From Acidobacteriota bacterium (GTDB lineage: Bacteria > Acidobacteriota > Terriglobia > Terriglobales > Acidobacteriaceae): a DNA stretch of 64,000 bases. This document shows, one piece after another, positions 2,150-44,707 of this stretch (position 1 is its first letter; the number at the start of each line of letters is the position of its first letter). The position numbers and the translations under genes are program-made. The notes below the pieces were generated by a model. It worked only from the letters and a program-made list of their open reading frames with translations, was not told where the DNA came from and searched no databases. Location: the NCBI GenBank assembly GCA_021800255.1, contig JAJYZC010000001.1:62001-126000 (forward strand), read 5' to 3'.

Positions 2150-3505
2150 ATGAGATCAGGATTTGTGCGAGCACTGAGTTCCGCTCTGGCGCTGGGTTTG
2201 GGCAGTGCGGCGCTGGCCGCGCAGCAGCCTTTAACGCTTCGCCAGGCCATCGATCAGGCGCTGGGCCGGAACCCCGAGGTGGCGGCGGCTCACGCGGGCG
2301 AGCAGGACGCCGCTGCGGCCGCGCGCCTGGCGCGCACGCCGTTACTGCCGCGGCTCAACTTCACGGAAGACATCTCGCGCGGCAACGACCCAGTGTACGT
2401 GTTCGGGACCCGGCTTCGGCAGGGGCTGTTTACGCAGGCCGACTTTGGGATCGATTCGCTGAATCATCCCACTCCCATCGGCGACTTCGTCACGCGCTTC
2501 AACGGTTCCTGGCTAGCCTTCGACTCCTTCAAGACGGAGAAGCAGATTCACGGCGCCGATTTGGCCAAGAAGAGCTCCGTATCCAGCGCCAAGGCCGTGA
2601 ACCAGGAGATCGTTCTGAATGTTGTGAAGGCCTACGAGCAGGTGCTTTACGCTGAGCGCGAGGTCGAGGTCGCGCGCCACGAGGAGCAAACGGCGGAAGC
2701 GCTGTTGACCTCAGTGGATCAGCATGTGAAGGCGGGCCTGGCGGTGGAGTCGGATCTGATGTCGGCGCAGGTGAACCTGGCCGCGCGCAAGGAGGATCGG
2801 ATCGCGGCCCAAGGCGGACTGGAAGTGGCGTGGGCGCAGTTGCGCATGGCTATGGGCGTGGAGCATTTGCAGCCTTCGCAACTGGCGCCCATTGAGCCGC
2901 ACGTGTTTCCGCAGACCCCGCTTGAACAGGAATTGGCTCAGGCGGCGAAGGCGCGCCCCGATCTGACGGCGCTCCATCAGGCGCAACAGGCGCAGGCGGA
3001 GGCGGTGGGCGCGGCGCGCTCGGATTTCGGCCCGCGCATAAGCGCCTACGGGAACTGGGAGGAAGACCGGCCCACATTTGCCGGACCGGGAGGCAACAAC
3101 TGGGTGGCCGGCGTCCAACTGAACCTGGACATCTTGCCGGTGGGCAAGCGCGAGCAACTGGCGCGGGCAAAAGCCGCCAAGCAGCAGATCGACGCCCAGC
3201 GCACCCTGGCTGAACAGCAGGTGCGCCTTGAAGTAAGCCAGGCCCACATTGCGCTGCAAACAGCGGCGCTCTCAGTGGATACGGCGCGAGCAGCGACGGC
3301 GCAGGCGGCTGAGGGCCTGCGCATCGTCCGCAACCGCTACAACGCGGGACTGGCCACCATCACCGACCTGCTGCGCGCCGAAGATGCGGAGCGCCAGAGC
3401 CAAGCGAACTACTGGCGCGCCGTTTATGGCAACGCCACGGCCTATGCCGAACTGCTTTACGCGACCGGGACTCTGACTCCCGATGCGGCGGAGGGATTGC
3501 AATGA
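2150..3505 (+). CDS. TolC-family outer membrane efflux protein
   Basis: A 451-residue outer membrane channel of a tripartite pump. Start ATG 2150 is preferred because AAGGA sits ten bases upstream and the product then begins with a clean signal peptide, MRSGFVRALSSALALGLGSA, cleaved near ALAA/QQ; ATGs at 2063 and 2120 only add a charged leader. The mature protein has the two-fold OEP pattern: long Ala/Gln/Glu-rich helices with LTLRQAIDQALGRNPEVAAA at the start and NRYNAGLATITDLLRAED near the end, a hallmark of the family. It overlaps the adaptor gene by four bases and forms one operon with adaptor and permease. Length is normal for the family. Confidence 0.92.
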   Translation: MRSGFVRALSSALALGLGSAALAAQQPLTLRQAIDQALGRNPEVAAAHAGEQDAAAAARLARTPLLPRLNFTEDISRGNDPVYVFGTRLRQGLFTQADFGIDSLNHPTPIGDFVTRFNGSWLAFDSFKTEKQIHGADLAKKSSVSSAKAVNQEIVLNVVKAYEQVLYAEREVEVARHEEQTAEALLTSVDQHVKAGLAVESDLMSAQVNLAARKEDRIAAQGGLEVAWAQLRMAMGVEHLQPSQLAPIEPHVFPQTPLEQELAQAAKARPDLTALHQAQQAQAEAVGAARSDFGPRISAYGNWEEDRPTFAGPGGNNWVAGVQLNLDILPVGKREQLARAKAAKQQIDAQRTLAEQQVRLEVSQAHIALQTAALSVDTARAATAQAAEGLRIVRNRYNAGLATITDLLRAEDAERQSQANYWRAVYGNATAYAELLYATGTLTPDAAEGLQ

Positions 3506-4611
3506 AGGTTTTGTTATCGGGTTGTTTGCTCGCCGCTGCGGCGGCGCTGGTGACCGGCTGCCGCAGCAATGAATCGGCGCCCCAAGCGGCGGCTCAGACA
3601 GTGGTGGCGCACGTGGTTGAGAGCAGCCAGCAGCAGGTGCCCATCGAGCTGCGCGTCACGGGAACGGTTCACGCCAAGGAGTCAGCGACTATCTCCGCGC
3701 AGGTGATGGGGCGCATCGAGCAGGTTCTGGTACACGCTGGAGACAGCGTGCGCGCGGGCCAAACGCTGGTGGCGCTGGACGGCTCCGCGCTGCGCGCCTC
3801 GGCGGCCCAGGCGCAGGCCGCGGTCGCGGCGGCCGAAAATCAGGAGGCGGCGGCCAAAAGCAGCGCCAGCCTGGCCTCCAGCACGCTGGCCCGCTACCAG
3901 CAACTCCAGACGGAAAAGAGCGTCAGCGCACAGGAGATGGATGTGGTGACGCGGCGGGCTCAGGCCGCAGCGGCGCAGCTCCAGGCCGTCGAAGCGCAGG
4001 TCCAGGCGGCGCGCGACCAGGCCCACGCAGCCCGCATCATGCTCGGTTACACGCGCATCGCGGCGCCCTTCAACGGCATCGTAACCGCGCGCATGGCCGA
4101 TCCCGGAACCATGGCTGCGCCCGGCGTGCCCCTGCTGCAAATCGACCGAACCGGCGCACTGCAATTGCAGGTTACGGTGGACGAATCGGCGATCGGCGCC
4201 GTCCGCCTGGGCATGAAAACGCCGGTCTCCATCGATGGCGTTGCGCCGCCGCTTGAAGGCGCGGTGGCCGAGATCGTGCCCGCGGCCGATCCCACCAGCC
4301 ACAGCTTCCTGGTCAAGATTGATCTGCCCCCGTCGAGTCAACTGCGCGCCGGCATGTACGGCACGGCGCAGTTCCCCAACGGCACGCACGAGGCGATTCT
4401 AGTGCCGCAATCGGCGGTGGTCGCGCGCGGCTCGCTGGAGTGCGCTTACGTTCTCGACAGCCAGGGCATCGCCCAGCTCCGTTACGTCACGCTGGGCGCG
4501 GTTCACGGCAACCAGGTGGAAGTTCTCTCCGGAATCGCGGGCGGCGAGCGGCTCGTGGACACGCCCGAAGACCGCGACTTCGCCGGTAAGCGCATCGAGG
4601 CTCAGCCATGA
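3502..4611 (+). CDS. RND efflux periplasmic adaptor (membrane fusion lipoprotein)
   Basis: A 369-residue HlyD/AcrA-type adaptor bridging permease and TolC channel. The N-terminus has a lipoprotein signal with lipobox LVTGC (Cys20), so it should be anchored in the inner membrane facing the periplasm. Order: barrel-sandwich lipoyl half (VTGTVHAKESATISAQVMG; VLVHAGDSVRAGQTLVALDG), an Ala/Gln-rich alpha-helical hairpin (about residues 90-175), second lipoyl half (YTRIAAPFNGIVTARMADPG), beta-barrel and membrane-proximal domain. It begins inside the tolC stop and ends inside the permease start (ATGA at both ends), indicating tight translational coupling. No ion-binding motif is visible that would mark it as a metal-efflux adaptor. 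Confidence 0.92.
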   Translation: MKVLLSGCLLAAAAALVTGCRSNESAPQAAAQTVVAHVVESSQQQVPIELRVTGTVHAKESATISAQVMGRIEQVLVHAGDSVRAGQTLVALDGSALRASAAQAQAAVAAAENQEAAAKSSASLASSTLARYQQLQTEKSVSAQEMDVVTRRAQAAAAQLQAVEAQVQAARDQAHAARIMLGYTRIAAPFNGIVTARMADPGTMAAPGVPLLQIDRTGALQLQVTVDESAIGAVRLGMKTPVSIDGVAPPLEGAVAEIVPAADPTSHSFLVKIDLPPSSQLRAGMYGTAQFPNGTHEAILVPQSAVVARGSLECAYVLDSQGIAQLRYVTLGAVHGNQVEVLSGIAGGERLVDTPEDRDFAGKRIEAQP

Positions 4612-7600
4612 ATCAGAATCTCGGATTAGCCGGAAAAATTGCAAAGGCGTTCCTCAACTCCAAGTTGACGCCGCTGTTCATCATTTCGGCGCTGGCCATC
4701 GGGACCTTTGCCACCATGGTGATCCCGCGCGAGGAAGACCCGCAGATCATGGTGCCTATGCTCGACATCACCACCGCCATGCCGGGCGCGTCGCCAGCCG
4801 AGGTTGAGAAGCGCGTCACCGAGCCCATTGAGATGCTCGTACACCAGATTTCGGGGGTGAAGTATATCTATTCGACATCGAGCCAGGGCCAGAGCCTGGT
4901 GATCGTGCGCTTCATGGTCAACACGCCGCAGGAAGAGGCGCTGATTACGGTTTACAGCAAAATCTACTCCAACTTCGACGTGCTTCCGCCGGGCGCTTCG
5001 CGCCCCATGATTAAGGCGCGGTCGATTGACGACGTGCCCATCCTCACGTTCTCGCTGTGGGGCCCGAATTACAACGGCTATCAGCTTCGCACCATCGCCG
5101 ATGAGGTGCAGCACCACATCGAGCAGATTCCAAATGTTTCCGAGACCCACGTGATCGGCGGCCTGCCGCGCACTATGCGCGTGGTTCTGAACACCGCCAA
5201 GCTGAACGCCTACGGTCTTTCGCCGATGGCCATCGTCAGCGATTTGCAGGCTGCCAATGCGCGTTTGCAGGCGGGCAGCTTCTCAGAGAACAACCAGGAA
5301 ATCGCCGTGGATGCCGGCAATTTCTTTACCAGCACCAAGGACCTTGAATCGGTGGTGGTGAGCGTGGACCAAGGCCGCCCCGTTTACCTGGGCGACGTGG
5401 CAGACAAGATCGTGGACGGGCCCGCGGAGCCCACCAACTACGTGCTCTTCGGCACCACCACCACGGGATCACATCAGCCGCCCGCGCGGTACCAATCCGT
5501 GACCATCAGCGTGGCCAAGCTCAAAGGCACCAACGCTACTACCATCGCCAACGCGGTGATGGCCAGCGTCGACCGGATGCGCGGCGACGTAATACCCAAA
5601 GACGTGCACATCACCGTAGACCGCAACTACGGCCACACAGCCAAAGTGAAGGCCGACGAGCTGCTCTTTCACTTGTTGCTGGCCACGATCTCCGTCACTT
5701 TGCTCATCGCGCTGTTCCTGGGCTGGCGGGAGTCGGGCGTAGTGCTGCTGGCGATTCCCGTCACGCTGGCGCTCACCATGGCGGTCATCTACCTGATCGG
5801 CTACACCATCAACCGCGTCACGCTCTTCGCGCTCATCTTTTCCATCGGCATTCTGGTGGACGACGCCATTGTCGTCGTCGAAAACATCGTGCGTCACTAC
5901 CGATTGCCTGAGAACCAGCACCGCTCGTGCAGCGACGTCACCATTGAAGCCGTAGCCGAGGTCGGCAACCCCACCATTTTGGCTACTTTCACGGTGCTGG
6001 CCGCGGTGCTGCCCATGGCCTTTGTGCGCGGGCTGATGGGCCCGTATATGCGGCCCATTCCGGTGGGATCGTCGGCGGCCATGCTCTTTTCTCTGATCGT
6101 GGCGTTTGTAGTGTCGCCGTGGGCGGCCATGCGGCTGCTGGGCAAGCACTTCGGCAAAGCTCGCATCCTGGAGCCGGAAGGCGAAAACTGGCGCACGCGG
6201 CTCTACCGGCGCGTGATGACCCCGCTGATCGCATCGCGGCGCAACCGCGTTTTCTTCTTTACCGCCGTGATCGTGCTGCTGCTCGGGTCGATGGCTCTGG
6301 TGCCGCTAAAGTGGGTGCGCGTGAAGATGCTGCCCTTCGACAATAAGAGCGAGCTGCAGGTAATCATCAACATGCCTGAGGGCACGCCGCTGGAACAGAC
6401 GCTGCGCGTGGCGGATGCGCTGGGCAACACGCTGGCGTATCAACCCGAGGTTCTGAACTATCAGGTTTACGCAGGAACCTCGGCGCCCTACAACTTCAAT
6501 GGCCTGGTGCGCCACTACTATCTGCGGCGCCAGCCCGATCAGGCCGACATCCAGGTGAATCTGTTGCCGCCCAAGGAGCGGCGCCTGGAGAGCCACGCCA
6601 TCGCCAAGCGTTTGCGGCCCCTGCTGGACGCCGCCGGAAAAAAGTATGGCGTGCGCAGCATTCAGGTTACCGAGGTGCCGCCCGGGCCGCCGGTGCTGCA
6701 AACCCTGGTGGCTGAGGTCTACGGCCCCAGCCTGGCGGGACAAATCCGCGTAGCGCGGCAGATCAAATCCATCTTTCTGCACACGCCCGGCGTGGTAGAC
6801 ACCGATTGGTACGTCGATGATCCGCAGCCGCGGCTGGTGATCAGCGTCGATCAGGTCAAAGCCGCTGAGAATGGCATCGCCGTCGCGGAGGTTGCGCACG
6901 CTTTGGCTCTGGCCAGCTCGGGAATGCAGGTGGGCTTGCTGCACGATCCGTACTCGCGCGAGGCGATTCCCTTAACCGTAGAGATCGATCGCGCTGACCG
7001 CTCGTCTGAGCAGGGTCTGGAAAACATCAAGCTGCCGGCCGCAAATGGCTCCATGGTCTCGCTGCGCGAGCTGGTCACCGTCCAGCGCACGATCATTCCC
7101 CAGAGCATCTACCGCAAGAACCTGAAGCGCGTGGTCTACGTGACCGGCGACGTGGCCGGCGCCGAAGAAAGCCCCGTCTACGCCATCCTCAAGATGAACA
7201 AGCAGCTCGATCACCTGCGCCTGCCGGCCGGCTACATCCTGCGCCGCTACAACGCCGAGCAGCCCCGCTACACCAATCACTACTCCATGAAATGGGACGG
7301 CGAATGGCAGATCACCATCGAGGTTTTTCGGGACCTTGGACTGGCCTTTGCGGCCGTACTGGTGTTGATTTACATCCTCGTGGTGGGATGGTTCCGCTCA
7401 TTTGTGGTGCCGCTGATCATCATGGCGCCGATACCGCTGACGCTGGTGGGCATTCTGCCTGCGCACGCCATGCTGGGCGCGTTCTTCACCGCGACTTCGA
7501 TGATCGGCTTCATCGCCGGCGCCGGCATCATCGTGCGCAACTCCATCCTCATCGTGGACTTCATCGAGCTGCGCTGGCGGCAGGGAGTTCCGCTGGCTCA

Positions 7601-7856
7601 AGCGGTCATCGACGGCGGCGCCATCCGCTTCCGTCCCATGCTGCTGACGGCGGCGGCGGTGGTGGTCGGCTCCAGCGTCATCCTCACCGATCCCATCTTT
7701 CAGGGGCTGGCCATCTCGCTGATGGCCGGCGCCATCGCCTCGACGTTCCTGTCGTGGCCCGTCATTCCCATCCTCTACTACGTGGTTCACCAGCATCGCA
7801 AAGCTCCGATGACCTGTGAACCCTCAACCAATCAAGGAGAATCCAATGACCGTTGA
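4608..7856 (+). CDS. RND efflux permease (AcrB/HAE-type family)
   Basis: A 1082-residue inner-membrane proton-driven pump. The first helix (LTPLFIISALAIGTFATMVI) is followed by REEDPQIMVPMLDI and a porter domain, then helices TM2-6. The TM4 segment carries the proton-relay aspartates in SIGILVDDAIVVVENI. A second porter half and the symmetric C-terminal helix bundle (GAGIIVRNSILIVDFIELR) complete the duplicated architecture. The sequence resembles the subgroup often annotated as acriflavin resistance proteins, not the CusA metal type, because the methionine pathway is not obvious. It overlaps the adaptor by four bases and the next small gene by eleven. Substrate cannot be predicted. Confidence 0.92.
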   Translation: MNQNLGLAGKIAKAFLNSKLTPLFIISALAIGTFATMVIPREEDPQIMVPMLDITTAMPGASPAEVEKRVTEPIEMLVHQISGVKYIYSTSSQGQSLVIVRFMVNTPQEEALITVYSKIYSNFDVLPPGASRPMIKARSIDDVPILTFSLWGPNYNGYQLRTIADEVQHHIEQIPNVSETHVIGGLPRTMRVVLNTAKLNAYGLSPMAIVSDLQAANARLQAGSFSENNQEIAVDAGNFFTSTKDLESVVVSVDQGRPVYLGDVADKIVDGPAEPTNYVLFGTTTTGSHQPPARYQSVTISVAKLKGTNATTIANAVMASVDRMRGDVIPKDVHITVDRNYGHTAKVKADELLFHLLLATISVTLLIALFLGWRESGVVLLAIPVTLALTMAVIYLIGYTINRVTLFALIFSIGILVDDAIVVVENIVRHYRLPENQHRSCSDVTIEAVAEVGNPTILATFTVLAAVLPMAFVRGLMGPYMRPIPVGSSAAMLFSLIVAFVVSPWAAMRLLGKHFGKARILEPEGENWRTRLYRRVMTPLIASRRNRVFFFTAVIVLLLGSMALVPLKWVRVKMLPFDNKSELQVIINMPEGTPLEQTLRVADALGNTLAYQPEVLNYQVYAGTSAPYNFNGLVRHYYLRRQPDQADIQVNLLPPKERRLESHAIAKRLRPLLDAAGKKYGVRSIQVTEVPPGPPVLQTLVAEVYGPSLAGQIRVARQIKSIFLHTPGVVDTDWYVDDPQPRLVISVDQVKAAENGIAVAEVAHALALASSGMQVGLLHDPYSREAIPLTVEIDRADRSSEQGLENIKLPAANGSMVSLRELVTVQRTIIPQSIYRKNLKRVVYVTGDVAGAEESPVYAILKMNKQLDHLRLPAGYILRRYNAEQPRYTNHYSMKWDGEWQITIEVFRDLGLAFAAVLVLIYILVVGWFRSFVVPLIIMAPIPLTLVGILPAHAMLGAFFTATSMIGFIAGAGIIVRNSILIVDFIELRWRQGVPLAQAVIDGGAIRFRPMLLTAAAVVVGSSVILTDPIFQGLAISLMAGAIASTFLSWPVIPILYYVVHQHRKAPMTCEPSTNQGESNDR

Positions 7857-8055
7857 ACGTGGACTTCGCCTGTTAGCGGGCATCTTCGTGCTCGGCTCCC
7901 TCGCCCTTGCTCATTACTTCTCGCCGAACTGGCTGTGGCTGACTGCGCTAGTCGGACTCAACCTCTTCCAGTCGGCCTTCACCAACTGGTGCCCGGGCAT
8001 GGTGATTCTGCGCGCCCTGGGGCTGAAGGACGCCGGCTGCGACAAAGCCATCTGA
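7846..8055 (+). CDS. YgaP-like DUF2892 small membrane protein
   Basis: A 69-residue protein starting at ATG 7846, which has a near-perfect AAGGAG ribosome site seven bases upstream that lies inside the 3' end of the permease gene. Two hydrophobic segments (LRLLAGIFVLGSLALAHYF and WLWLTALVGLNLFQSAF) are followed by the family signature NWCPGMVILRALGLKD. DUF2892 is the membrane half of YgaP, where it accompanies a rhodanese; here no rhodanese is present. Family members are frequently placed next to RND pumps, as seen here. The conserved CP near the membrane may be redox- or thiol-active, which is inference. Confidence 0.85.
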   Translation: MTVERGLRLLAGIFVLGSLALAHYFSPNWLWLTALVGLNLFQSAFTNWCPGMVILRALGLKDAGCDKAI

Positions 8056-8062
8056 GGCCGCT

Positions 8063-8647
8063 ATGCACGAAAAACGCATGTCCGCTTCCCGCGCCGATCG
8101 TCTCGAAGATCCCGCGCGCCTCGTGTGGCTTCCACCCAGCGAAGTGCTGGGCGCGCTGAAGTTGCGCGACGGAGAGACGGTGGCCGACGTGGGTGCGGGT
8201 ACGGGATACTTTGCGCTGCCCATGGCGCGCGCCGTGGGAGCGAAAGGCAGGGTATACGCCGTGGATGCTCAAGCCGAAATGCTGGCGCGGCTCAAGGAGA
8301 AGCTCCGTGACGCCGCGCTCACTAACGTCGAGCTGGTCCAGGCGGAGGCGGATCGCACCGCCCTGCCTGCGTCCGCCTGCGATCTCTTCTTCCTCGCCAA
8401 CGTGTGGCACGAGCTAGACGATCACGCCGCCACGCTCGGCGAAGCCCGCCGGGTGCTGAAGCCGCACGGCCGGATCGCAATCCTCGACTGGCGGCCCGAT
8501 GTGGAGCAGGCGGACGGTCCGCCGCTGGCTCACCGGCTCGATTCCGCCCATGCCATCGGCCACCTGCGCACGGCCGGCTTCGAGCCTCTTACCCAGACCT
8601 TCACCGGCCAGTACTCCTGGCTGTTACAGGGAGAGATGCGTCCATGA
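8063..8647 (+). CDS. Class I SAM-dependent methyltransferase
   Basis: A 194-residue Rossmann-fold methyltransferase. Motif I is VADVGAGTGYFALPMA (about residues 40-55), followed by the acidic residue of motif II (VYAVDAQ) and motif post-II/III in DLFFLANVWHELDDH and VLKPHGRIAILDWRP. The pattern is that of the UbiE/ArsM-like methyltransferases that act on small molecules. It starts seven bases after the DUF2892 gene and its stop overlaps the next start (ATGA), so it belongs to the efflux operon. Substrate unknown; it could modify or detoxify the pump substrate, an idea based only on context. Confidence 0.85.
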   Translation: MHEKRMSASRADRLEDPARLVWLPPSEVLGALKLRDGETVADVGAGTGYFALPMARAVGAKGRVYAVDAQAEMLARLKEKLRDAALTNVELVQAEADRTALPASACDLFFLANVWHELDDHAATLGEARRVLKPHGRIAILDWRPDVEQADGPPLAHRLDSAHAIGHLRTAGFEPLTQTFTGQYSWLLQGEMRP

Positions 8648-8922
8648 CTGCGCAAAAAGCCGCTTCCTTGGGCGCAGCTTCCCGCCGCGGTTGCGGCGAG
8701 CGGCTCAAGGATGAGGTCTACCGTCAGATGTTCCGGCTGGAAGCGCGCCATCCCGGCGCCGACAGGGACCTCGCCGTCGCCCTGCTGCGCGCCTGGATTG
8801 CCTGCGGTTCGCCGGCTGCTCGCAAGGGAGAGATACAGTGGCTGAAGAAGATCTGCCCCATCTGTCTGGGTATGATTGACGATGCCCTGCAGGCCGGCCC
8901 ACGCCGCCTGGAAATCCGCTAA
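8644..8922 (+). CDS. Small uncharacterised protein, last gene of efflux operon
   Basis: A 92-residue hydrophilic protein whose ATG overlaps the methyltransferase stop (ATGA), which supports it being translated. The middle (KDEVYRQMFRLEARHPGADR) looks helical and charged. Near the end it carries IQWLKKICPICLGMIDDAL, a CxxC pair that could bind metal or act as a thiol pair; another Cys is at CGERLK. I do not recognise the family. It is followed by a structured inverted-repeat region, consistent with the operon ending here. Confidence 0.65.
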   Translation: MTAQKAASLGAASRRGCGERLKDEVYRQMFRLEARHPGADRDLAVALLRAWIACGSPAARKGEIQWLKKICPICLGMIDDALQAGPRRLEIR

Positions 8923-8924
8923 CT

Positions 8925-9020
8925 CAAAACCAGGGCAGATGTATCCCGGTGGCACAAACCGGGCACCAGCGAGCAGCGGCCTTCACTAACCCCATACAAC
9001 ACACCGCAGCCCTGGTTTTG
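8925..9020. repeat. Nested inverted repeats, possible terminator or structured RNA
   Basis: CAAAACCAGGGC (8925-8936) and GCCCTGGTTTTG (9009-9020) are perfect inverted copies 72 bases apart. Inside lies a second hairpin, CCCGGT (8945-8950) with ACCGGG (8958-8963) and a seven-base loop. The element begins three bases after the operon's last stop. It may end the efflux transcript, or be a small palindromic element; there is no T-run. Confidence 0.55.
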
Positions 9021-9161
9021 CCGTAAGCGCAAAGCTCCGATTCCAGCGGCGGCTCGGCACTGACAGTCAACCGGTTCCTTCCGTCAAAAACTGCCTTATA
9101 CATCTTGCCTTTGGCATTGCACGCGGGAATATACTGAAGCAGTCTCCGAACCGAAGCAACG

Positions 9162-10082
9162 ATGCGCCCCGAACTGACTCAAGCAACTGAACTTTTGCGC
9201 CGACAAACGCCTGAAGCCGTCGAAGAAGCCATCGGTCTGCTTCAGAACACGGTTTACTCCTTCAGCATGAAGGTCTGCGGCCATCCGCAAGACGCCGAAG
9301 ACACGATGCAGGAGGTGCTCTTTCGCTCTCTCGGCCATCTGGCCAAAATTCAGGACCCGCAGGCGCTTGCGGTCTGGCTCTATACCGTAACCAGAAACCG
9401 CTGCTGGCGCATGAGGCGCAAACCCGCCGGCGCTCCCGCGCGCACTCTGTCGCTCGACGAGTTGATGCCCGATCAGACGGAGTTGGGGCGCCTTCTTGAG
9501 GACGCGGCCAAAACTCCCGAGGCCAACCTTCTTGATGGCGAGCAGCACCACCTGCTGCACGAGGCAGTGCTGCGCATTCCGGCGCCGCTGCGCATCGTTC
9601 TTGTGCTGCACGATATGGAGGAACTGACCACCGAACAGGTGGCCGCAATCCTGGGTTTGCAGCCCGGAACTGTCCGTGTCCGCCTGCACCGTGCGCGCCT
9701 GAGCGTGCGCCAGCAGATGACGCGCATCCTCGAAACAACGCCTCAAGCGAAGGACGGCGCTTCGGCAACCGGAAAACGCCGCGGCGCACGCGCCAAACCC
9801 GCTCAGCGCCCGGCCGAGTGCCACAAACTGTTTGCCAGCCTCTCGGACTATCTGGACGGAAAGGTGCCGCAGCCCGCTTGCGACCAGATGCGGAAACACA
9901 TCGAGGCCTGCCCGGCGTGTGTCGCCTTTCTGCGCGACCTGCGCGCCGCTATCGATCGCTGCCGCGCACTGGAAACCCCCTGCGATCCGGCCGTCGCCAG
10001 CCGTCTGCGCGCTATCCTCACCCAGGAGTATTTACGCATGTTGGGCCTGCCGGGCAGAGAAAAGACGCGCTCCGCCATGTAA
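9162..10082 (+). CDS. ECF-type RNA polymerase sigma factor with C-terminal zf-HC2 domain
   Basis: A 306-residue regulator. Sigma region 2 lies at about residues 26-85 (YSFSMKVCGHPQDAEDTMQE, WLYTVTRNRC) and region 4 at about 125-185 (LRIPAPLRIVLVLHDMEELT, LGLQPGTVRVRLHRARL). After a basic linker comes a zinc-binding anti-sigma-like segment, CHKLFASLSDYLDGK then HIEACPACVAFLRDL, the H-x3-C-x2-C zf-HC2 pattern normally found in a separate anti-sigma factor. The fusion suggests the sigma factor senses its signal, probably redox or metal, in cis. No membrane segment is present, so it should be cytoplasmic. A TATACT at 9130 lies in the right area for a promoter. OsmC follows, a possible target. Confidence 0.9.
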   Translation: MRPELTQATELLRRQTPEAVEEAIGLLQNTVYSFSMKVCGHPQDAEDTMQEVLFRSLGHLAKIQDPQALAVWLYTVTRNRCWRMRRKPAGAPARTLSLDELMPDQTELGRLLEDAAKTPEANLLDGEQHHLLHEAVLRIPAPLRIVLVLHDMEELTTEQVAAILGLQPGTVRVRLHRARLSVRQQMTRILETTPQAKDGASATGKRRGARAKPAQRPAECHKLFASLSDYLDGKVPQPACDQMRKHIEACPACVAFLRDLRAAIDRCRALETPCDPAVASRLRAILTQEYLRMLGLPGREKTRSAM

Positions 10083-10130
10083 CGAAGACTTGCCCGCATG
10101 GATTTCATCGAATGAAAAGTGGAGGTCGAT

Positions 10131-10547
10131 GTGGAAGTTAAAATCTCGCATCTGGGACAGGTAAAGTTCGCCGTTCAGGCGCGGTCGCACACCGTTGTCT
10201 GCGACCAGCCGCTGGAGAACGGCGGAGAAGACGCAGGCGTGACGCCTCCGGAACTGCTGCTTGCGTCGCTAGGCGCCTGCGCGGCCTTCTACGCCGCCCA
10301 ATATCTCAAAACCCGCAACCTCGCCCAGGCCGGCGTCGAGGTCACGGTTGCCGCGGACAAGCTTATGCAGCCTGCCCGCTATGGCAACTTCCGCATTCAC
10401 GTTGTCTGCCCTGTTGCGCTCACGGAAGAGCAGACGCAAGCCATGATGCGCTCCGTGCGCCACTGCACGATTCATAATACGTTGTCGTCATCATCGGAGA
10501 TTGCAGTCGAGGTCGAGATGGCCACCCGCGTGGCCGTCCTCTCATAG
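10131..10547 (+). CDS. OsmC/Ohr-family protein
   Basis: A 138-residue OsmC-like protein. OsmC and Ohr are cytoplasmic thiol-dependent peroxidases that reduce organic hydroperoxides; related YhfA-type members have less certain roles. The first conserved Cys is in ASLGACAAFYAAQYLKTR and the second in RHCTIHNTL, matching the two catalytic cysteines. I chose GTG 10131 because GGAGG lies five bases upstream; a GTG at 10119 would add four residues. It lies 48 bases after the sigma factor gene in the same direction, so it may be cotranscribed or controlled by it. Ordinary length. Confidence 0.85.
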   Translation: MEVKISHLGQVKFAVQARSHTVVCDQPLENGGEDAGVTPPELLLASLGACAAFYAAQYLKTRNLAQAGVEVTVAADKLMQPARYGNFRIHVVCPVALTEEQTQAMMRSVRHCTIHNTLSSSSEIAVEVEMATRVAVLS

Positions 10548-10674
10548 CGCACTGCCCAAACATCGGCTTTCCTTGCCGCCTCGATAGGAAACGCTTGCAA
10601 AGCCTGATTCCGGACGCCTTCAAGTCAGAAGCAACCTTACGCGGGGGCACGGCATCGGAATAGAATGTGTAAGT

Positions 10675-11043
10675 ATGTTCGGCTATCTTGCGGCTTTCCG
10701 GTCAATCACGCAGACAGCTCTTGCCTTAGGGTTGTGCCTCCTGGCGCTTTCCTTCGTCATGGAAGCCAAGCTGGCGTGGTGTGGGCCTGTGGCGAGGATG
10801 GTCAGCGAGGTGCGGGCGTCAAAAGCCCTCCCCGATGACGCGCCGACAGGGGTGCATGGCGTTTCCGCCTCCTATCCTGTTTATCCTCGTACCCCGTTCG
10901 CCATTCCGGAAGTCATAGCAGCCTATTGCGCGGCGGACGCGCAACCTGTGCTGCGGCGCAGCGTAGCATCCAAGCACATTCCCTCTGTAGCCAACCGTTA
11001 CTTTGTCCCGTATAACTTCTTGCGCTCTCCGCCTCTGTACTGA
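10675..11043 (+). CDS. Hypothetical small exported protein
   Basis: A possible 122-residue protein with an N-terminal hydrophobic segment (ITQTALALGLCLLALSFVM) and a longer polar part with three Cys. I do not recognise a family. There is no ribosome-binding site, but TAGAAT (10661-10666) lies eight bases before the ATG, so the mRNA could be leaderless. Coding status is uncertain, since codon composition is less extreme than in neighbours. Confidence 0.4.
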   Translation: MFGYLAAFRSITQTALALGLCLLALSFVMEAKLAWCGPVARMVSEVRASKALPDDAPTGVHGVSASYPVYPRTPFAIPEVIAAYCAADAQPVLRRSVASKHIPSVANRYFVPYNFLRSPPLY

Positions 11044-38503: not shown

Positions 38504-39318
38504 ACCCCCATTCCAACAAGGGCCGCATCGGCCACGACCGCTGGCTGGTCTCCTATGCCGATTTCATCACCCTGATGTTCGCCTTCTTCGTCGTCCTTTA
38601 CGCCTTCGCCAATGCCAAGCAAAAACAGCAGATCGCGGTTGCAGCCTCCATCCAGTCCGCCTTCCGCTCCATGGGCATCTTTCCCGGGGCCGCAAGCAAA
38701 GCCTCCAAGTTATCCGGCGGGCCCGGCGCCGGCGAGGCCGACATGCCCATGAGCACCGTGATGGAGGAGGATCTGCTGTCTCCCGCTCAGGTTAAGAACG
38801 ACCTCAACCGCATCGGCAGCGAACTCACACAAACCCTCGCCCAACAGGTCGCCAACCGCACCGTCTCCATCCATATGGGTCAGGACGGGCTGGTCATCAG
38901 CCTGCGCGAGGCCGGTTTCTTCGATTCCGGCTCGGCTACCCCCAAGCCCCAGTCCCTGCCCACTCTCCGTCAGATCGCCGCCACGCTCGGCCACACGCCC
39001 TATGACGTTCGCATTGAGGGCTTCACTGACAACGTACCCATCCACAACGCCCAATTCGACTCCAACTGGGAGCTTTCCACCGCCCGCGCCACGGGAATCC
39101 TCCGCCTCTTCCTGGAACTGAAAGCCATCCCTCCCGACCGCCTTTCGGCCGCCGGATACGCGCAATATCATCCTGTGGCCAGCAACGCGACCGCCGAGGG
39201 CCGCGCCCAGAATCGCCGCGTCGATCTCGTCGTACTGCCCCGCACCAGAATCAACTTCGCCGCTTCGAATTCCCTGCCGCCCAGCGGTTCCTGGCGCAAG
39301 ATTACCGACGAGCACTAG
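38500..39318 (+). CDS. motB: Flagellar motor stator protein MotB
   Basis: A 272-residue stator subunit. The single N-terminal helix carries the essential ion-binding Asp21 in [19 protein letters not shown] plug/linker region follows, then the peptidoglycan-binding OmpA-type domain (about 150-250), with [20 protein letters not shown] and RRVDLVVLP. Whether H+ or Na+ drives it cannot be decided from sequence alone. It overlaps motA (ATGA). The stop TAG lies in the palindrome CTAG shared with the converging yjbQ stop. Confidence 0.93.
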
Positions 39319-39746
39319 TCTGTCTCGCTCGCCGTTACTCCCAGCACCTTCACGATCACCCGTTTGCGCCGCTGGCCGTCGAACTCCGCGTAGAAAATCC
39401 GCTGCCACGTTCCCAGGTCGAGACGGCCGTTGGTCACCGGCAAGGTCGTCTCATGGTGCAAGAGCAGCGACTTCAGGTGCGCGTCCCCGTTGTCTTCGCC
39501 GGTGCGGTGATGGCGGTAATCGGGCCGCGCCGGCGCCAGCTTCTCCAGCCACTCGCCGATGTCCTCGATCAACCCGCTCTCCAGGTCGTTGACATAGATC
39601 GCCGCCGTGATGTGCATGGGAGAAACGAAGCATAGCCCGTCTTTGACGCCGCTGCGGCACACAATCTCTTCCACCTCGCCGGTGATGTGCACCATCTCCC
39701 GGCGCTTGTGGGTCTCAAATACCAAATACTCCGTGTAACTCTTCAT
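39315..39746 (-). CDS. YjbQ/UPF0047 family protein
   Basis: A 143-residue cytoplasmic protein of the YjbQ family, often annotated secondary thiamine-phosphate synthase, a weak side activity whose physiological role is unsettled. Conserved elements are [40 protein letters not shown] and [16 protein letters not shown] with the two histidine clusters. ATG 39746 has GGAG upstream. Its TAG stop overlaps the motB stop by four bases on the opposite strand. Not obviously related to flagella. Confidence 0.9.
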
Positions 39747-40105
39747 TGGGTCTCCACGCATACAGCCGCATCTCCGCCTGCTCCTTCGCCGCTTCTCCGA
39801 AGGGGCTCGATCTTGGATCCATTTTTATCTTACAGATCGCCGCACCCTGTCGCGTGCTGCCCCCTTGCTGGCCTGCCGCATGGTTTACTAAGATTTGTAG
39901 AGGCCAAACGCACCCACGCTGGGCGCGAGGCTGCCCGTGATGAATGGTATTCCCTGGTGCTGAAATTGCCGGAGATCAACACCTCTCCGCTTTTTTGCAT
40001 CCCAATCCAGAGTGGCGGAATCGCTCAGCTTTCCGCTGCGCACGATAAATAGACTTCCCGCGATGCGGCCGCGACGATGGGCCCCAACGGAGGGAAAGGG
40101 GGGTT
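39747..40105. other. Intergenic region upstream of the cytochrome operon
   Basis: No gene is supported. TTGGATCC (about 39812) with TTTTTATCTTAC could be promoter-like. A strong AAAGGGGGG ribosome site precedes the cytochrome-porin ATG. No repeat or riboswitch fold could be supported. Confidence 0.4.
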
Positions 40106-41425
40106 ATGCGAAAAATCCTGCGCGTTTTGGCGGCAGCATATTTTTTAATCGCCGTGAATTGGGCCTATGCCGTACCGAGCTTTGCCCGTCAGACGGATCT
40201 GTCCTGCAATGTCTGCCACAGCAATCCTCCGGAACTGACCGCTTTTGGCCGTAACTTCAAGCTGCACGGATATCTGCTGGCAAAGACCGGCAAAAACGAG
40301 AAGGTTGGGACTAGTAAGGCGCTCCGTCTTTCCATGAAGATTCCTCTCGCGGTCATGATGCTGCTTTCCGACACCGCATACCAGGCGAACCAGCCCGCGA
40401 CCCAGAACAACTCCGCGGGCTTTCCACAGCAGTTGAGCATCTTTCTAGCCGGCGCGTTCGCATCCCACTTCGGCGGGCTGGCCCAGGTTACTTACTCGCA
40501 CGCCGAAGACCACTTCGGCATGGACAATACCGACCTGCGTTACGCCAACCAGAGCAAGCTGCTGCACAAGACCCTGGACTACGGGATCACCATCAATAAC
40601 AACCCCACCGTCGAAGATATCTGGAACAGCACCCCGGCATGGGGCTTTCCCTGGATCTCCACCGCTTCCAGCGTAAGTCCGCTCGCCTCTCCCATCATCA
40701 ACGGCACCCTCGGCCAGGATGTGGCGGGGCTGGGCGGTTATGGGATGTGGAACAACCATCTCTACGGCGACATTACCCTCTACCGCTCCGAACATGCCGG
40801 CGCGGCGACACCCATAACGGGAGCGGGAGAGCAATATAACATCAGCGGCGCCGCTCCTTATTGGCGGGCAGCATGGCAACAAACCTGGAGCGATAACTAT
40901 CTCGAGGTCGGAACTTATGGCATGGATGTTAACTCATTCCCCAATGCGATCTCCGGGCCCGAAGACCGCTACGTGGACACCGCCTTCGATTTTCAATACG
41001 AACACCCCTTCGGCCCCAACCTTCTCGACGCTCATGGAACGTACATCCATGAGAAATCGGATTTGGGCGCAACGTATGCGGCCGCCGGAGCAAGCACGGC
41101 CTTGAATCATCTGAATACCTTCAAGCTGGATAGCACATATCATTGGCGAAACCGATACAGCGCGACCGGCGCGCTGTTTTCCACCACCGGCAATCGCGAT
41201 CCCCTGCTTTACGCGCCGGCTCCGCTGACCGGCAGCGAAAATGGCGATCCCGATACGAGCGGATATATTGCGCAGCTCGCCTTCTGGCCGGTGCAAAACA
41301 TCGACATCGATTTCAACTACTCAGGCTACTTCAAATTTAACGGCGCCAGCACCAATTACGACGGCGCCCACCGGAATGCTTCTGACAACAACACCACCTA
41401 TATGGCTCTGTGGTTGAACTTCTAG
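40106..41425 (+). CDS. Cyc2-like fused monohaem cytochrome c and outer membrane porin
   Basis: A 439-residue exported protein. A signal peptide (about 1-22, ending NWAYA) precedes VPSFARQT, then the haem motif C34-N-V-C37-H38 and PELTAFGRNFKLHGY. The FARQT-CxxCH-PxLxxFGRxFKxxGY block is the hallmark of Cyc2, the outer-membrane fused cytochrome-porin that oxidises Fe(II) in Acidithiobacillus and neutrophilic iron oxidisers. The remaining ~370 residues look like a beta-barrel with alternating strands and a terminal aromatic (YMALWLNF). Length falls in the short Cyc2 range. It is followed by Rieske and b-type genes. The substrate is not proven; Cyc2-like proteins without iron-oxidising function may exist. 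Confidence 0.72.
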   Translation: MRKILRVLAAAYFLIAVNWAYAVPSFARQTDLSCNVCHSNPPELTAFGRNFKLHGYLLAKTGKNEKVGTSKALRLSMKIPLAVMMLLSDTAYQANQPATQNNSAGFPQQLSIFLAGAFASHFGGLAQVTYSHAEDHFGMDNTDLRYANQSKLLHKTLDYGITINNNPTVEDIWNSTPAWGFPWISTASSVSPLASPIINGTLGQDVAGLGGYGMWNNHLYGDITLYRSEHAGAATPITGAGEQYNISGAAPYWRAAWQQTWSDNYLEVGTYGMDVNSFPNAISGPEDRYVDTAFDFQYEHPFGPNLLDAHGTYIHEKSDLGATYAAAGASTALNHLNTFKLDSTYHWRNRYSATGALFSTTGNRDPLLYAPAPLTGSENGDPDTSGYIAQLAFWPVQNIDIDFNYSGYFKFNGASTNYDGAHRNASDNNTTYMALWLNF

Positions 41426-41433
41426 GAGACAGC

Positions 41434-41991
41434 GTGGAACAGGAACTAAGTAAGGACAATCTAGCCGGAAGAAAAGATGTCATTATCATCAACCGGCGCT
41501 CCTTCTTCGGGGCATTGCTGGCCATTGGCTCGGCAGGAATGGGCGCCATTCTTGCCGTTCCGGTGCTGCGGTACGTTCTCTATCCGATCTATGCCAAAGC
41601 CTCGGGAATCGCGTGGGCTGACGTGGGTGATCTCAGCGAGTTTGCTGAAATCTCCGCTCCTGTCCGCAAGACCATCACCTTCGCCCAGCTCGACGGCTGG
41701 CGTCAGGTGGAGTCTGCGCAATCGGTCTACGTGAATCGCACCAGCGGGGGAGAATTCGAGGTCCTATCCGCCATCTGCCCCCACCTGGGATGCAGCGTCT
41801 CCTGGCAGAAGAATGCAGACGATTTTCTCTGTCCCTGCCACGGGAGCATTTTTTCGCCGGATGGGAAGCTCGTGAAGGGCCCGGCGCCGCGGGGGATGGA
41901 TCCCCTTCCCCACCGCGTGAAGAACGGCAAACTGCAGGTTCGTTTTGAATTTTTCCGGGAAGACGTCCCCAATAGAGAAGTAGTCAGTTAA
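41434..41991 (+). CDS. Rieske iron-sulphur protein of a bc complex
   Basis: A 185-residue protein that accepts electrons from quinol at the Qo site. GTG 41434 has AGGAG five bases upstream and lies eight bases after the previous stop. NRRSFFG (residues 20-26) is a twin-arginine signal followed by a membrane helix (about 28-50), normal for Rieske proteins that fold in the cytoplasm. The cluster ligands are C115-P-H117-L-G-C120 and C133-P-C135-H136, both motifs complete. It is directly followed by the cytochrome b fusion gene. Confidence 0.93.
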   Translation: MEQELSKDNLAGRKDVIIINRRSFFGALLAIGSAGMGAILAVPVLRYVLYPIYAKASGIAWADVGDLSEFAEISAPVRKTITFAQLDGWRQVESAQSVYVNRTSGGEFEVLSAICPHLGCSVSWQKNADDFLCPCHGSIFSPDGKLVKGPAPRGMDPLPHRVKNGKLQVRFEFFREDVPNREVVS

Positions 41992-42010
41992 CCGGGATGA
42001 GGAGCAAACT

Positions 42011-44707
42011 GTGGACGAAAAGGAAAAATTAGCTTCCGCCACATCCTCCGGCGAGAGCCTTTCGAAACGCCTATACCGTTGGCTGGACAGGCGCGCCGAA
42101 GTGAATAAGCTGATGGAGGAATCGCTCGACGAGCCGATTCCGGGCGGAGCGCGCTTCGCTTACGTTTTTGGCTCTGGGCTGCTCTTCATCTTTATCTCGC
42201 AGATCATTACCGGCATCTGCCTGGCTATTTATTACGTGCCCTCGGCTGAGACCGCCCATACCAGCGTAGCCTACATCACCAAGAAGGTCGCCGCGGGCGA
42301 CTTCCTGCGCAGCCTCCACTACTATGGATCGAGCGCGATGATCATCGTGCTCCTGCTGCATTTTCTGCAAACCTTTCTCTATGGCTCCTTCAAGGGAAGA
42401 CGCGAACTGCTCTGGATGTCCGGGGCCACACTCTCGTTGCTGGTGCTGGGCATGGGTTTCACCGGCTACCTGCTGCCCTGGGATCAGAGAGCCTATTTCG
42501 CTACCGCGGTGGGCACCAATATCGTCGGCGAAGTGCCGCTCATCGGCGGTTGGCTCACAAAGCTGATGCGCGGCGGCGACACCATCGGCACTCTTACACT
42601 GTCGCGCTTTTACGTCGCTCATGTCTTTCTCATTCCCGCCTGCATCTTCGCCTTCATCAGCATTCACATTTACCTTTTTCGCAAAGCCGGCGCGGCCGGC
42701 CCAATGCACGAAAATCCAGTTCATCCCACGCTGCCGCCGGAGGGGTTCTACCCGCGCCAGGTCCTCATGGATATGGCGTTTGCCCTGTTACTGATGGTGG
42801 GTCTGGGTTTTCTGGCCTACTTCCACCCCATCGGTCTCGGTCCCATCGCCAACCCCGCCAACACCCACTATCTGCCGCGGCCCGAGTGGTATTACCTGCC
42901 TTTCTTTGAATGGCTCAAGCTCTGGGAGGGGCCGAAAGCCGTCATCGCGGTCGTGGTTACGCCCGCCCTGCTGGCAGCGTTGTTCTTCCTTCTGCCGTTC
43001 CTCGACCGCAGCCTGGAGCGCAGGCCGTGGCGCAGGCCCATTCCCGTGCTGGCGGTGGGCATCGTCCTCGTGGGCATCTTCTTCCTGGGCATCAGGAGCC
43101 GGATCGACGACGAGGACGACCCCACCGTAGCCGCTCAACTGGCGCGTCAAGCAGAGCAGGAAAGGGCCTATACGAAAGCGCCCTTCCGTCCCTATATCGA
43201 GTCACCGGGCGCAACGGGTCCGCTGGCGCTTCCCACCGGCCCTGTGAATCCGCTGGTGTCGCAGGGCAGAGGGGTCTTTCAGTCTGAGGGATGCTCCGGC
43301 TGCCACGGCGACACCGGCATGGGAACTATGGTTGCGCCCAGCCTCGAAGGCATCACCACCAAGTTCTCGGGGCCGCAGTTGACCGCACTGCTGCACAACC
43401 CCAATGCCGCCATGAGAGCCGGTCACATGCCTTCCTTCGACATATCGAATAGCGACATGTCGGCCCTGCTCGCCTACCTGGGAGTGATCGGAACCGCCGC
43501 AGCCAACGTACAACCGACCTCCGGCGAAATTGCGCAGGCGCCTGTCGCCGCGTCACAGGCCGCGCCGGCGGCGGCCGGACTACCGCAAGCCGCCGCTCCG
43601 GCGCCCAAGCAACTCTCAGCGCAGGCAGCCGCAGGCAGCCAGATCTTCCAGCAGCACGCTTGCTCGGCTTGTCACGGGCCAGCCGGACAGGGTGCGGTGG
43701 CGCCTGCTCTTGCTCCGTTGATCGCTCATCTTTCTGGCCCGCAGCTAACACAGCTATTGCAGCATCCAAATGCCAAGATGAAGGCTGGCGGAATGCCGCC
43801 CTTCGCGGGAACGGCCGGCCAGCTTGACTCCCTGATTGCTTTTTTGCGCACACTCAAGCCGCCGGCGCAGCAGGCCCAACAGCAGCCGCAGCCGCAGCAG
43901 TCGGCGGCCATGGCGTTCGCTTCGGAAAATGGCGGCGTTCCTTATCCGGAGGAGGGTTCTGCGCCTGCTCCTTCGGCGGTCACAAATGGGGTTCGCTCCG
44001 CATCCCCAACTCTTCCCGGCGGGGCTGTCTCTTCATCTCGTGCGGTTGCTGCTGCTTCGCCCGCATCCGCTCCGAGTCCAGGCCGCGCGCTCTTTCTTTC
44101 CCAAGGATGCTCTGCCTGCCACGGACCCTCCGCGCAGGGCACGCGGTTCGCTCCCTCGCTGATCGGTATCAGTAAGAAATTCCCCGGCGACAAGCTGCCC
44201 TATCTGCTGCGCCACCCAACTCGCGCAATGCGCGGCGGGGGAATGCCGACAGTAGCTCTGAACGACCAGCAGCTAAAGCAATTGGTGGCCTATCTGTCCA
44301 CTCTAACCCCTGCCTCCGCCCGAGCGCCGGCTGCGCAGTCCAGTCCCGCTGTTGGCACGGCGAATATGCAACCCTCTGCGGCTCCGCCAGCCCCGTCCAA
44401 CACGGCTGCCCCGGCGCCCGCTCGGCCTGCCCCGCTGAGTCCGCTGGCCAAACGCGGTGAGCGCATCTTCGAGAGCATGAACTGCGAAACCTGCCACGGA
44501 GTAGGCGGGTTGACCGGGACCGTCGCCGCGCCGCCGCTGGCGGGCACGGCCTCGCTGCTCCCCGCCAATGTTCTTGAAAACCTGCTGCGGCACCATTCCA
44601 AACGCATGCAGGAGGGCGGCATGCCGCTCACCAACCTGAACCCGCAGGACATGAAATCGCTGATCGCCTATATTCGCTCCATGCCCTCGTCCTCCACGGC
44701 AAAATAA
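42011..44707 (+). CDS. Cytochrome b (b6-like) fused to four haem c domains
   Basis: An 898-residue quinol-oxidising subunit. The N-terminal ~365 residues are cytochrome b with eight helices. Haem b ligands are H103/H117 and H204/H219; the second pair is spaced H-X14-H, as in b6f-type rather than mitochondrial bc1. PEWY (291-294) marks the Qo site. After a short linker come four c-type domains with CxxCH at 428, 551, 700 and 825 (CSGCHG, CSACHG, CSACHG, CETCHG), separated by Pro/Ala/Gln-rich linkers. With the Rieske gene this makes a bc complex from two genes. Start is GTG 42011, GGAG six bases upstream. Confidence 0.9.
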   Translation: MDEKEKLASATSSGESLSKRLYRWLDRRAEVNKLMEESLDEPIPGGARFAYVFGSGLLFIFISQIITGICLAIYYVPSAETAHTSVAYITKKVAAGDFLRSLHYYGSSAMIIVLLLHFLQTFLYGSFKGRRELLWMSGATLSLLVLGMGFTGYLLPWDQRAYFATAVGTNIVGEVPLIGGWLTKLMRGGDTIGTLTLSRFYVAHVFLIPACIFAFISIHIYLFRKAGAAGPMHENPVHPTLPPEGFYPRQVLMDMAFALLLMVGLGFLAYFHPIGLGPIANPANTHYLPRPEWYYLPFFEWLKLWEGPKAVIAVVVTPALLAALFFLLPFLDRSLERRPWRRPIPVLAVGIVLVGIFFLGIRSRIDDEDDPTVAAQLARQAEQERAYTKAPFRPYIESPGATGPLALPTGPVNPLVSQGRGVFQSEGCSGCHGDTGMGTMVAPSLEGITTKFSGPQLTALLHNPNAAMRAGHMPSFDISNSDMSALLAYLGVIGTAAANVQPTSGEIAQAPVAASQAAPAAAGLPQAAAPAPKQLSAQAAAGSQIFQQHACSACHGPAGQGAVAPALAPLIAHLSGPQLTQLLQHPNAKMKAGGMPPFAGTAGQLDSLIAFLRTLKPPAQQAQQQPQPQQSAAMAFASENGGVPYPEEGSAPAPSAVTNGVRSASPTLPGGAVSSSRAVAAASPASAPSPGRALFLSQGCSACHGPSAQGTRFAPSLIGISKKFPGDKLPYLLRHPTRAMRGGGMPTVALNDQQLKQLVAYLSTLTPASARAPAAQSSPAVGTANMQPSAAPPAPSNTAAPAPARPAPLSPLAKRGERIFESMNCETCHGVGGLTGTVAAPPLAGTASLLPANVLENLLRHHSKRMQEGGMPLTNLNPQDMKSLIAYIRSMPSSSTAK

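Follow-up and report, generated by a model that had tools for sequence, protein, structure and literature searches.

A putative cluster-2-type Cyc2 cytochrome-porin encoded in an operon with a Rieske/cytochrome b complex in an acidobacterium

Three adjoining genes of an acidobacterium (positions 40106-44707 of the window, the whole 64,000-nucleotide stretch of DNA analysed here) probably encode a trans-envelope electron conduit whose partner outside the cell is a soluble metal ion, most likely Fe(II)/Fe(III). Cyc2 is the outer-membrane protein through which known bacteria exchange electrons with extracellular iron. The first of the three genes is a member of the Cyc2 family, while the operon arrangement is new and suggests a hitherto unstudied route of electron exchange with iron, which may run in either direction.

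In the proposed mechanism, the Cyc2-family protein (predicted to be an outer-membrane porin of 16 strands whose N-terminal domain carries one c-type haem) would trade electrons with the external metal ion, for which iron is the presumed identity. The inner-membrane Rieske/cytochrome b complex would couple Cyc2 to the quinone pool. The four tethered c-type domains would span the periplasm as far as the Cyc2 haem and would presumably pass electrons to or from it directly. The operon contains neither a diffusible Cyc1 nor a copper protein, which was counted against the conduit. The features of the locus are listed in Table 1.

Table 1. Features of the operon and its 5' border, in window coordinates
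Feature	Position	Strand	Basis or detail
Divergent upstream neighbour, UPF0047/YjbQ family; outside the module, 5' border of the operon	39315..39761	-	PF01894
cyc2-like gene, monohaem cytochrome-porin (P0001)	40106..41425	+	439 aa; full-length homology to rus-operon Cyc2, trees
Signal-peptide-like segment, residues 1-22 (MRK...AYA)	40106..40171	+	Read from the sequence
AVPSFARQT, residues 22-30	40169..40195	+	AXPXFAR[Q/K][T/Y] motif of PMC8406198
CNVCH haem-binding motif, residues 34-38	40205..40219	+	Sole CxxCH of the protein
PEL, residues 42-44, after the haem site	40229..40237	+	PXL motif of PMC8406198
Predicted 16-strand beta-barrel, residues 81-438	40346..41419	+	AlphaFold2 model, general-porin fold
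Rieske [2Fe-2S] protein	41434..41991	+	PF00355, 46 bits; CPHLGC...CPCHGS
Cytochrome b (roughly residues 1-380) with a fused tail of four c-type cytochrome domains	42011..44707	+	898 aa; PF00033, PF00032, PF00034 x4

Sequence and predicted fold of the cytochrome-porin

The cyc2-like ORF begins with ATG and ends with TAG. The FARQT motif, the single CxxCH and the barrel behind a signal-like start, which had been picked out in a preliminary description of this DNA, are all present. The segment FGRNFKLHGY follows at residues 47-56, after which come about 380 barrel residues, the last of them Phe. Keffer et al. (2021) define Cyc2 by an AXPXFAR[Q/K][T/Y] motif before CXXCH, PXL after it, a minimum length of 365 residues and a porin of 16 strands, with PXL about 4 residues past the single CXXCH (PMC8406198). 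The window protein has all four features, the 16 strands being predicted. A strict version of the motif has a single match in all six reading frames of the window, against none in 20 shuffles.

The ORF is not a product of chance, because orthologues with 79% and 73% identity and the same gene order exist in the same genus and at least 584 relatives were found in the genome collection. The acidobacterial setting proposed earlier fits as well: a contig labelled 'Acidobacteria bacterium' (L095) encodes a 54%-identical protein with both partner genes (Rieske and cytochrome b) nearby downstream. No Pfam or NCBIfam model matches the porin and a PDB sequence search gave no convincing relative, so these searches neither support nor exclude a Cyc2 identity.

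The preliminary description had proposed structure prediction as a check. AlphaFold2, run on an alignment of 60 sequences, produced a model (pLDDT 84.7, pTM 0.84) with 16 strands behind an N-terminal helical haem segment (helices at residues 24-53); a single-sequence model (pLDDT 30.8) was set aside. The fold matches of the model are general porins including OmpC/OmpF, OprP and OprO (Z 21-22), and the last two are published templates for Cyc2 (PMC8406198). No solved Cyc2 structure is among these matches, and this absence was not counted as evidence. The signal-like N-terminus and the predicted barrel are compatible with an outer-membrane location.

An unrelated porin with an accidental CxxCH, whose only argument is that no Pfam or NCBIfam model matches the porin, is so improbable that it was rejected: the haem motif, the flanking motifs and the barrel are conserved across whole alignments, and the predicted fold and the tree speak against it too.

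Relationship to rus-operon Cyc2 and other clusters

The genome-collection scan had an Acidithiobacillus plasmid homologue as its first row. Chromosomal Cyc2 was not among the matches listed, and reference rus operons were therefore located via rusticyanin. In one such genome (G326) a Cyc2-like gene lies 7 kb ahead of rusticyanin with a COX1 gene in between. A second family with rusticyanin shows Cyc2, CoxA and rusticyanin in succession, at the same spacing, in four stretches. Overall, the distance from Cyc2 to rusticyanin in the rus-type reference loci is 7-8 kb, with CoxA between. For example, the gene order in L174 is cyc2, dihaem cyc1, cup, coxB, coxA, coxC, further genes and rusticyanin. 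In the rusticyanin genome G270 no Cyc2 was found; it is present in the family of G270.

The window porin aligns over its full length with the Cyc2 of G326 (35% identity) and with the rus-operon Cyc2 of the other family (27-32%). Clusters 1 and 3 (Zetaproteobacteria/Gallionellaceae; Leptospirillum Cyt572) have the same plan of an N-terminal cytochrome domain and a porin, but in the cluster-1-like (CHFQHFP) and FARKY-type sequences found here only the N-terminal part, about 113-130 residues (median), aligns with the window porin. Maximum-likelihood trees place the window porin and rus-operon Cyc2 in one clade (99/99) with cluster-1-like and cluster-3-like proteins outside. The cluster labels were assigned here by motif and operon, and long branches connect the three groups. 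All but one of the Acidobacteria-type Cyc2 sequences form a deep branch of their own (15 rows, 93/100).

The earlier identification as a Cyc2-like cytochrome-porin is thus borne out by the motif, the predicted 16-strand barrel, the full-length homology and the tree position with rus-operon Cyc2, and assignment to the cluster-2 type is well supported. The signal-like segment, the AXPXFARQT-type motif, the single CxxCH, PXL and the porin plan are common to the window protein and the Acidithiobacillus rus-operon Cyc2 (cluster 2). The surroundings differ. In the Acidithiobacillus rus operon cyc2 is accompanied by cyc1, cup, coxBACD and rus, whereas the window operon has no cyc1, cup, coxBACD or rusticyanin and contains only the Rieske gene and the cytochrome b-c4 fusion after cyc2. 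It is therefore not a rus-type operon.

The Rieske/cytochrome b partner complex

The Rieske ORF was listed from a GTG at 41410, but the GTG at 41434 is the more probable start because an AGGAG overlaps the cyc2 stop codon. The gaps between cyc2, the Rieske gene and the cytochrome b gene are 8-19 nt and Shine-Dalgarno sequences are present; the three genes are therefore read as one operon. The cytochrome b matches PF00033 with 162 bits, and the CxxCH motifs of its fused tail are located at 43292, 43661, 44108 and 44483. Together the two proteins have the composition of a bc/b6-type quinol complex, namely a Rieske protein and a cytochrome b with its C-terminal domain (PF00355, PF00033 and PF00032 above cut-off).

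The four-haem tail also occurs in the close relatives G026, G032 and G712, while distant relatives have a single c-domain. Among the loci read, four haem motifs were counted in the tails of L143, L144 and L219 and one in those of L146, L147 and L152.

The genome contains three cytochrome b genes: that of the window, one beside a Cyc2 paralogue (C90) and one beside CoxA (C30). At C30 the cytochrome b and a Rieske match lie next to CoxA in a canonical-looking bc/aa3 arrangement. The possibility that the window pair is the housekeeping bc complex was therefore discarded, and the window complex is an additional one. This agrees with the earlier suggestion that the porin adjoins its own quinol-oxidising complex, here Rieske plus cytochrome b-c4. 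In A. ferrooxidans, too, the iron pathway has a bc complex of its own, encoded by the pet operon (cycA-sdrA-petABC). However, pet is separate from the cyc2 operon and also encodes cytochrome c1 and CycA, whereas in the window the complex is encoded within the cyc2 operon and the c-type domains are fused to cytochrome b.

Linkage of a cytochrome-porin with cytochrome b is recurrent. In the 60 relatives and the window's own genome, 23 of 50 cytochrome-porin genes have a same-strand cytochrome b gene no more than 6 kb away. A rough uniform estimate predicts about 0.15; related genomes are not independent. Both porin types are linked in this way, including the cluster-3-like (FARKY-type) one. Among the full-length Cyc2-like genes of relatives, no linked cytochrome b was detected for 21 of 33, many of which are on short contigs; this was weighed against the conduit.

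A second operon of the same genome (L142, G000:C90:20000-39900, positions 2687-11043) holds the Cyc2 paralogue, which is about 50% identical to the window porin. Its order is NAD(P)/FAD/Fe-S oxidoreductase, Rieske, cytochrome b6, subunit IV-like protein, octahaem c, Ig-cytochrome c and Cyc2. In several relatives the C90-type paralogue likewise has a linked cytochrome b in a similar position. A FARKY-type (cluster-3-like) porin operon was seen in G002 (L247, G002:C1:4209000-4222000, positions 3503-10351) and comprises the porin, a small cytochrome c, an oxidoreductase of the C90 kind, Rieske, cytochrome b and a multihaem c.

Exchange of the outer-membrane partner

Relatives' window-type Rieske/cytochrome b complexes which lack a linked Cyc2 were compared. 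In G008, a member of the same genus, such a complex divergently adjoins genes for a decahaem cytochrome of the DmsE family and a barrel of the MtrB/PioB type, each scoring above cut-off (L246, G008:C27:440000-459000, positions 4218-10620). The Rieske and cytochrome b genes of G036 and G037 are preceded, on the same strand, by a DmsE-family decahaem and a large ORF (L250, 4681-10494; L251, 4952-10620). The latter, 822 aa long in G036 and 668 aa in G037, has no NCBIfam match and may be a divergent MtrB barrel, an identity suggested by position only. In G040 and G042 neither Cyc2 nor a decahaem/MtrB conduit was detected near the window-type complex, a further point against the conduit.

The presence of the same complex beside either Cyc2 or decahaem/MtrB suggests that it is dedicated to an outer-membrane conduit; no other observation argues as strongly that the two work together. 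MtrAB, PioAB and MtoAB are outer-membrane electron conduits too, and in G008 such a conduit occupies the place that Cyc2 has in the window; in G036 and G037 the decahaem takes that place beside Rieske/cytochrome b. The two kinds of conduit are built differently: the MtrAB type consists of a 26-strand barrel and a separate decahaem protein (PMC8406198), whereas the window has one gene for a porin with one haem.

In the open papers searched, neither a Cyc2 lineage of the cluster-2 type that shares an operon with a bc complex nor an exchange between Cyc2 and decahaem/MtrB was found described. Annotations of Cyc2 in Acidobacteriota already exist, and one report places it in cluster 3 (PMC9671151). 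Cluster-3 assignments have elsewhere been called uncertain for iron oxidation (PMC13264449).

Direction of electron flow

Export from quinol to extracellular Fe(III) and uptake from Fe(II) are about equally likely for the conduit. Export is marginally favoured, as the operon has a quinol complex and no oxidase. In the outward case, a serious candidate that still falls short of an even chance, the system would be a reductase of extracellular Fe(III) or another acceptor. The Rieske/cytochrome b complex would oxidise quinol, the electrons would travel through the four c-domains to Cyc2 and on to soluble Fe(III), and the Q cycle would conserve energy. The lack of RuBisCO in the genome and the swap of Cyc2 for a decahaem/MtrB conduit in relatives are consistent with this direction. 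Cyc2 has been proposed as a terminal Fe(III) reductase of anaerobic A. ferrooxidans, and Acidobacteriaceae are listed among the Fe(III) reducers of an acid lake (PMC8790237). Acidiphilium, a known Fe(III) reducer (PMC8790237), has homologues among the matches listed. However, no Cyc2 with biochemically shown Fe(III) reduction as its function was found, and conduits of the MtrAB type also run inwards (PioAB/MtoAB).

Oxidation of Fe(II) or another extracellular donor is nearly as credible. Cyc2 would take up the electrons and hand them to the c-domains, from which they would flow downhill to an aa3 oxidase and partly uphill, through a reversed Rieske/cytochrome b complex, to the quinone pool and NADH, as has been proposed for A. 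ferrooxidans. Every biochemically tested Cyc2 is an Fe(II) oxidase (sources including PMC8406198), and the nearest characterised relatives are the rus-operon Cyc2 proteins. The genome has two aa3-type CoxA genes, the paralogue operon includes an NAD(P)/FAD/Fe-S oxidoreductase, and reverse flow through bc1 belongs to the A. ferrooxidans model (PMC8790237). On the other hand, the oxidase, rusticyanin and Cyc1 are all missing from the operon, homologues are found in organisms without known iron oxidation, and a genome lacking RuBisCO has less need for uphill NADH. The preliminary description took the quinol complex as a sign of uptake. On its own, the complex does not point to uptake: export fits equally well, and in relatives the same complex is found beside a decahaem/MtrB-type conduit, a class used in both directions.

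It is rather unlikely that the partner of the porin is another small redox compound (humics, Mn, Cu or a phenazine-like shuttle) or that the porin is a redox-gated metal channel. The family is very broad and, as noted above, a linked cytochrome b went undetected for most of the full-length homologues in relatives, but the characterised members of all three clusters act on iron (sources including PMC8406198). Iron is the presumed substrate of the window porin, as it was in the preliminary description.

A more speculative proposal, put forward tentatively, extends the conduit to a modular respiration. One Rieske/cytochrome b-c complex would be served by an interchangeable cluster-2 Cyc2 or decahaem/MtrB, and Cyc2, contrary to its textbook role, would act outward as a true Fe(III) reductase that conserves energy. 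The direction matters because Cyc2 genes serve as iron-oxidation markers, and here a cluster-2-type lineage, common in a sister family within the order, is tied to a quinol complex. With outward flow the marker would be misleading; with inward flow, mixotrophic growth on iron would be added to the metabolism of heterotroph-like members of the group. The swap between Cyc2 and decahaem/MtrB also offers a testable handle on how inner-membrane complexes are paired with outer-membrane conduits.

Distribution of Cyc2-like proteins

Among the matches listed, full-length relatives come from many Proteobacteria, Bacteroidota, Gemmatimonadota, Rokubacteria and others, and many proteobacterial copies have a c-type cytochrome gene directly downstream. 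Hosts of full-length homologues include Ralstonia, Paraburkholderia, Trinickia, Acidiphilium and Bacteroidota. Some of these have no known iron oxidation and Acidiphilium reduces Fe(III), so the earlier view of the signature as a hallmark of iron oxidisers was too narrow. In a sample of the phylum some cytochrome-porin was found in 89 of 297 genomes and the full-length type of the window in about 7. The full-length type is patchy within the genus; in the sister family it is often multicopy.

In three Bacteroidota MAGs (L066, L068, L096) Cyc2-like genes adjoin a Rieske/cytochrome b pair in divergent orientation. A second Cyc2-like lineage, 38-40% identical to the window porin, was detected in the family of G270 (L154-L158, L173). 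These relatives bear rusticyanin, yet none was seen near the Cyc2-like genes within the stretches read. This lineage may correspond to the Cyc2B of the literature.
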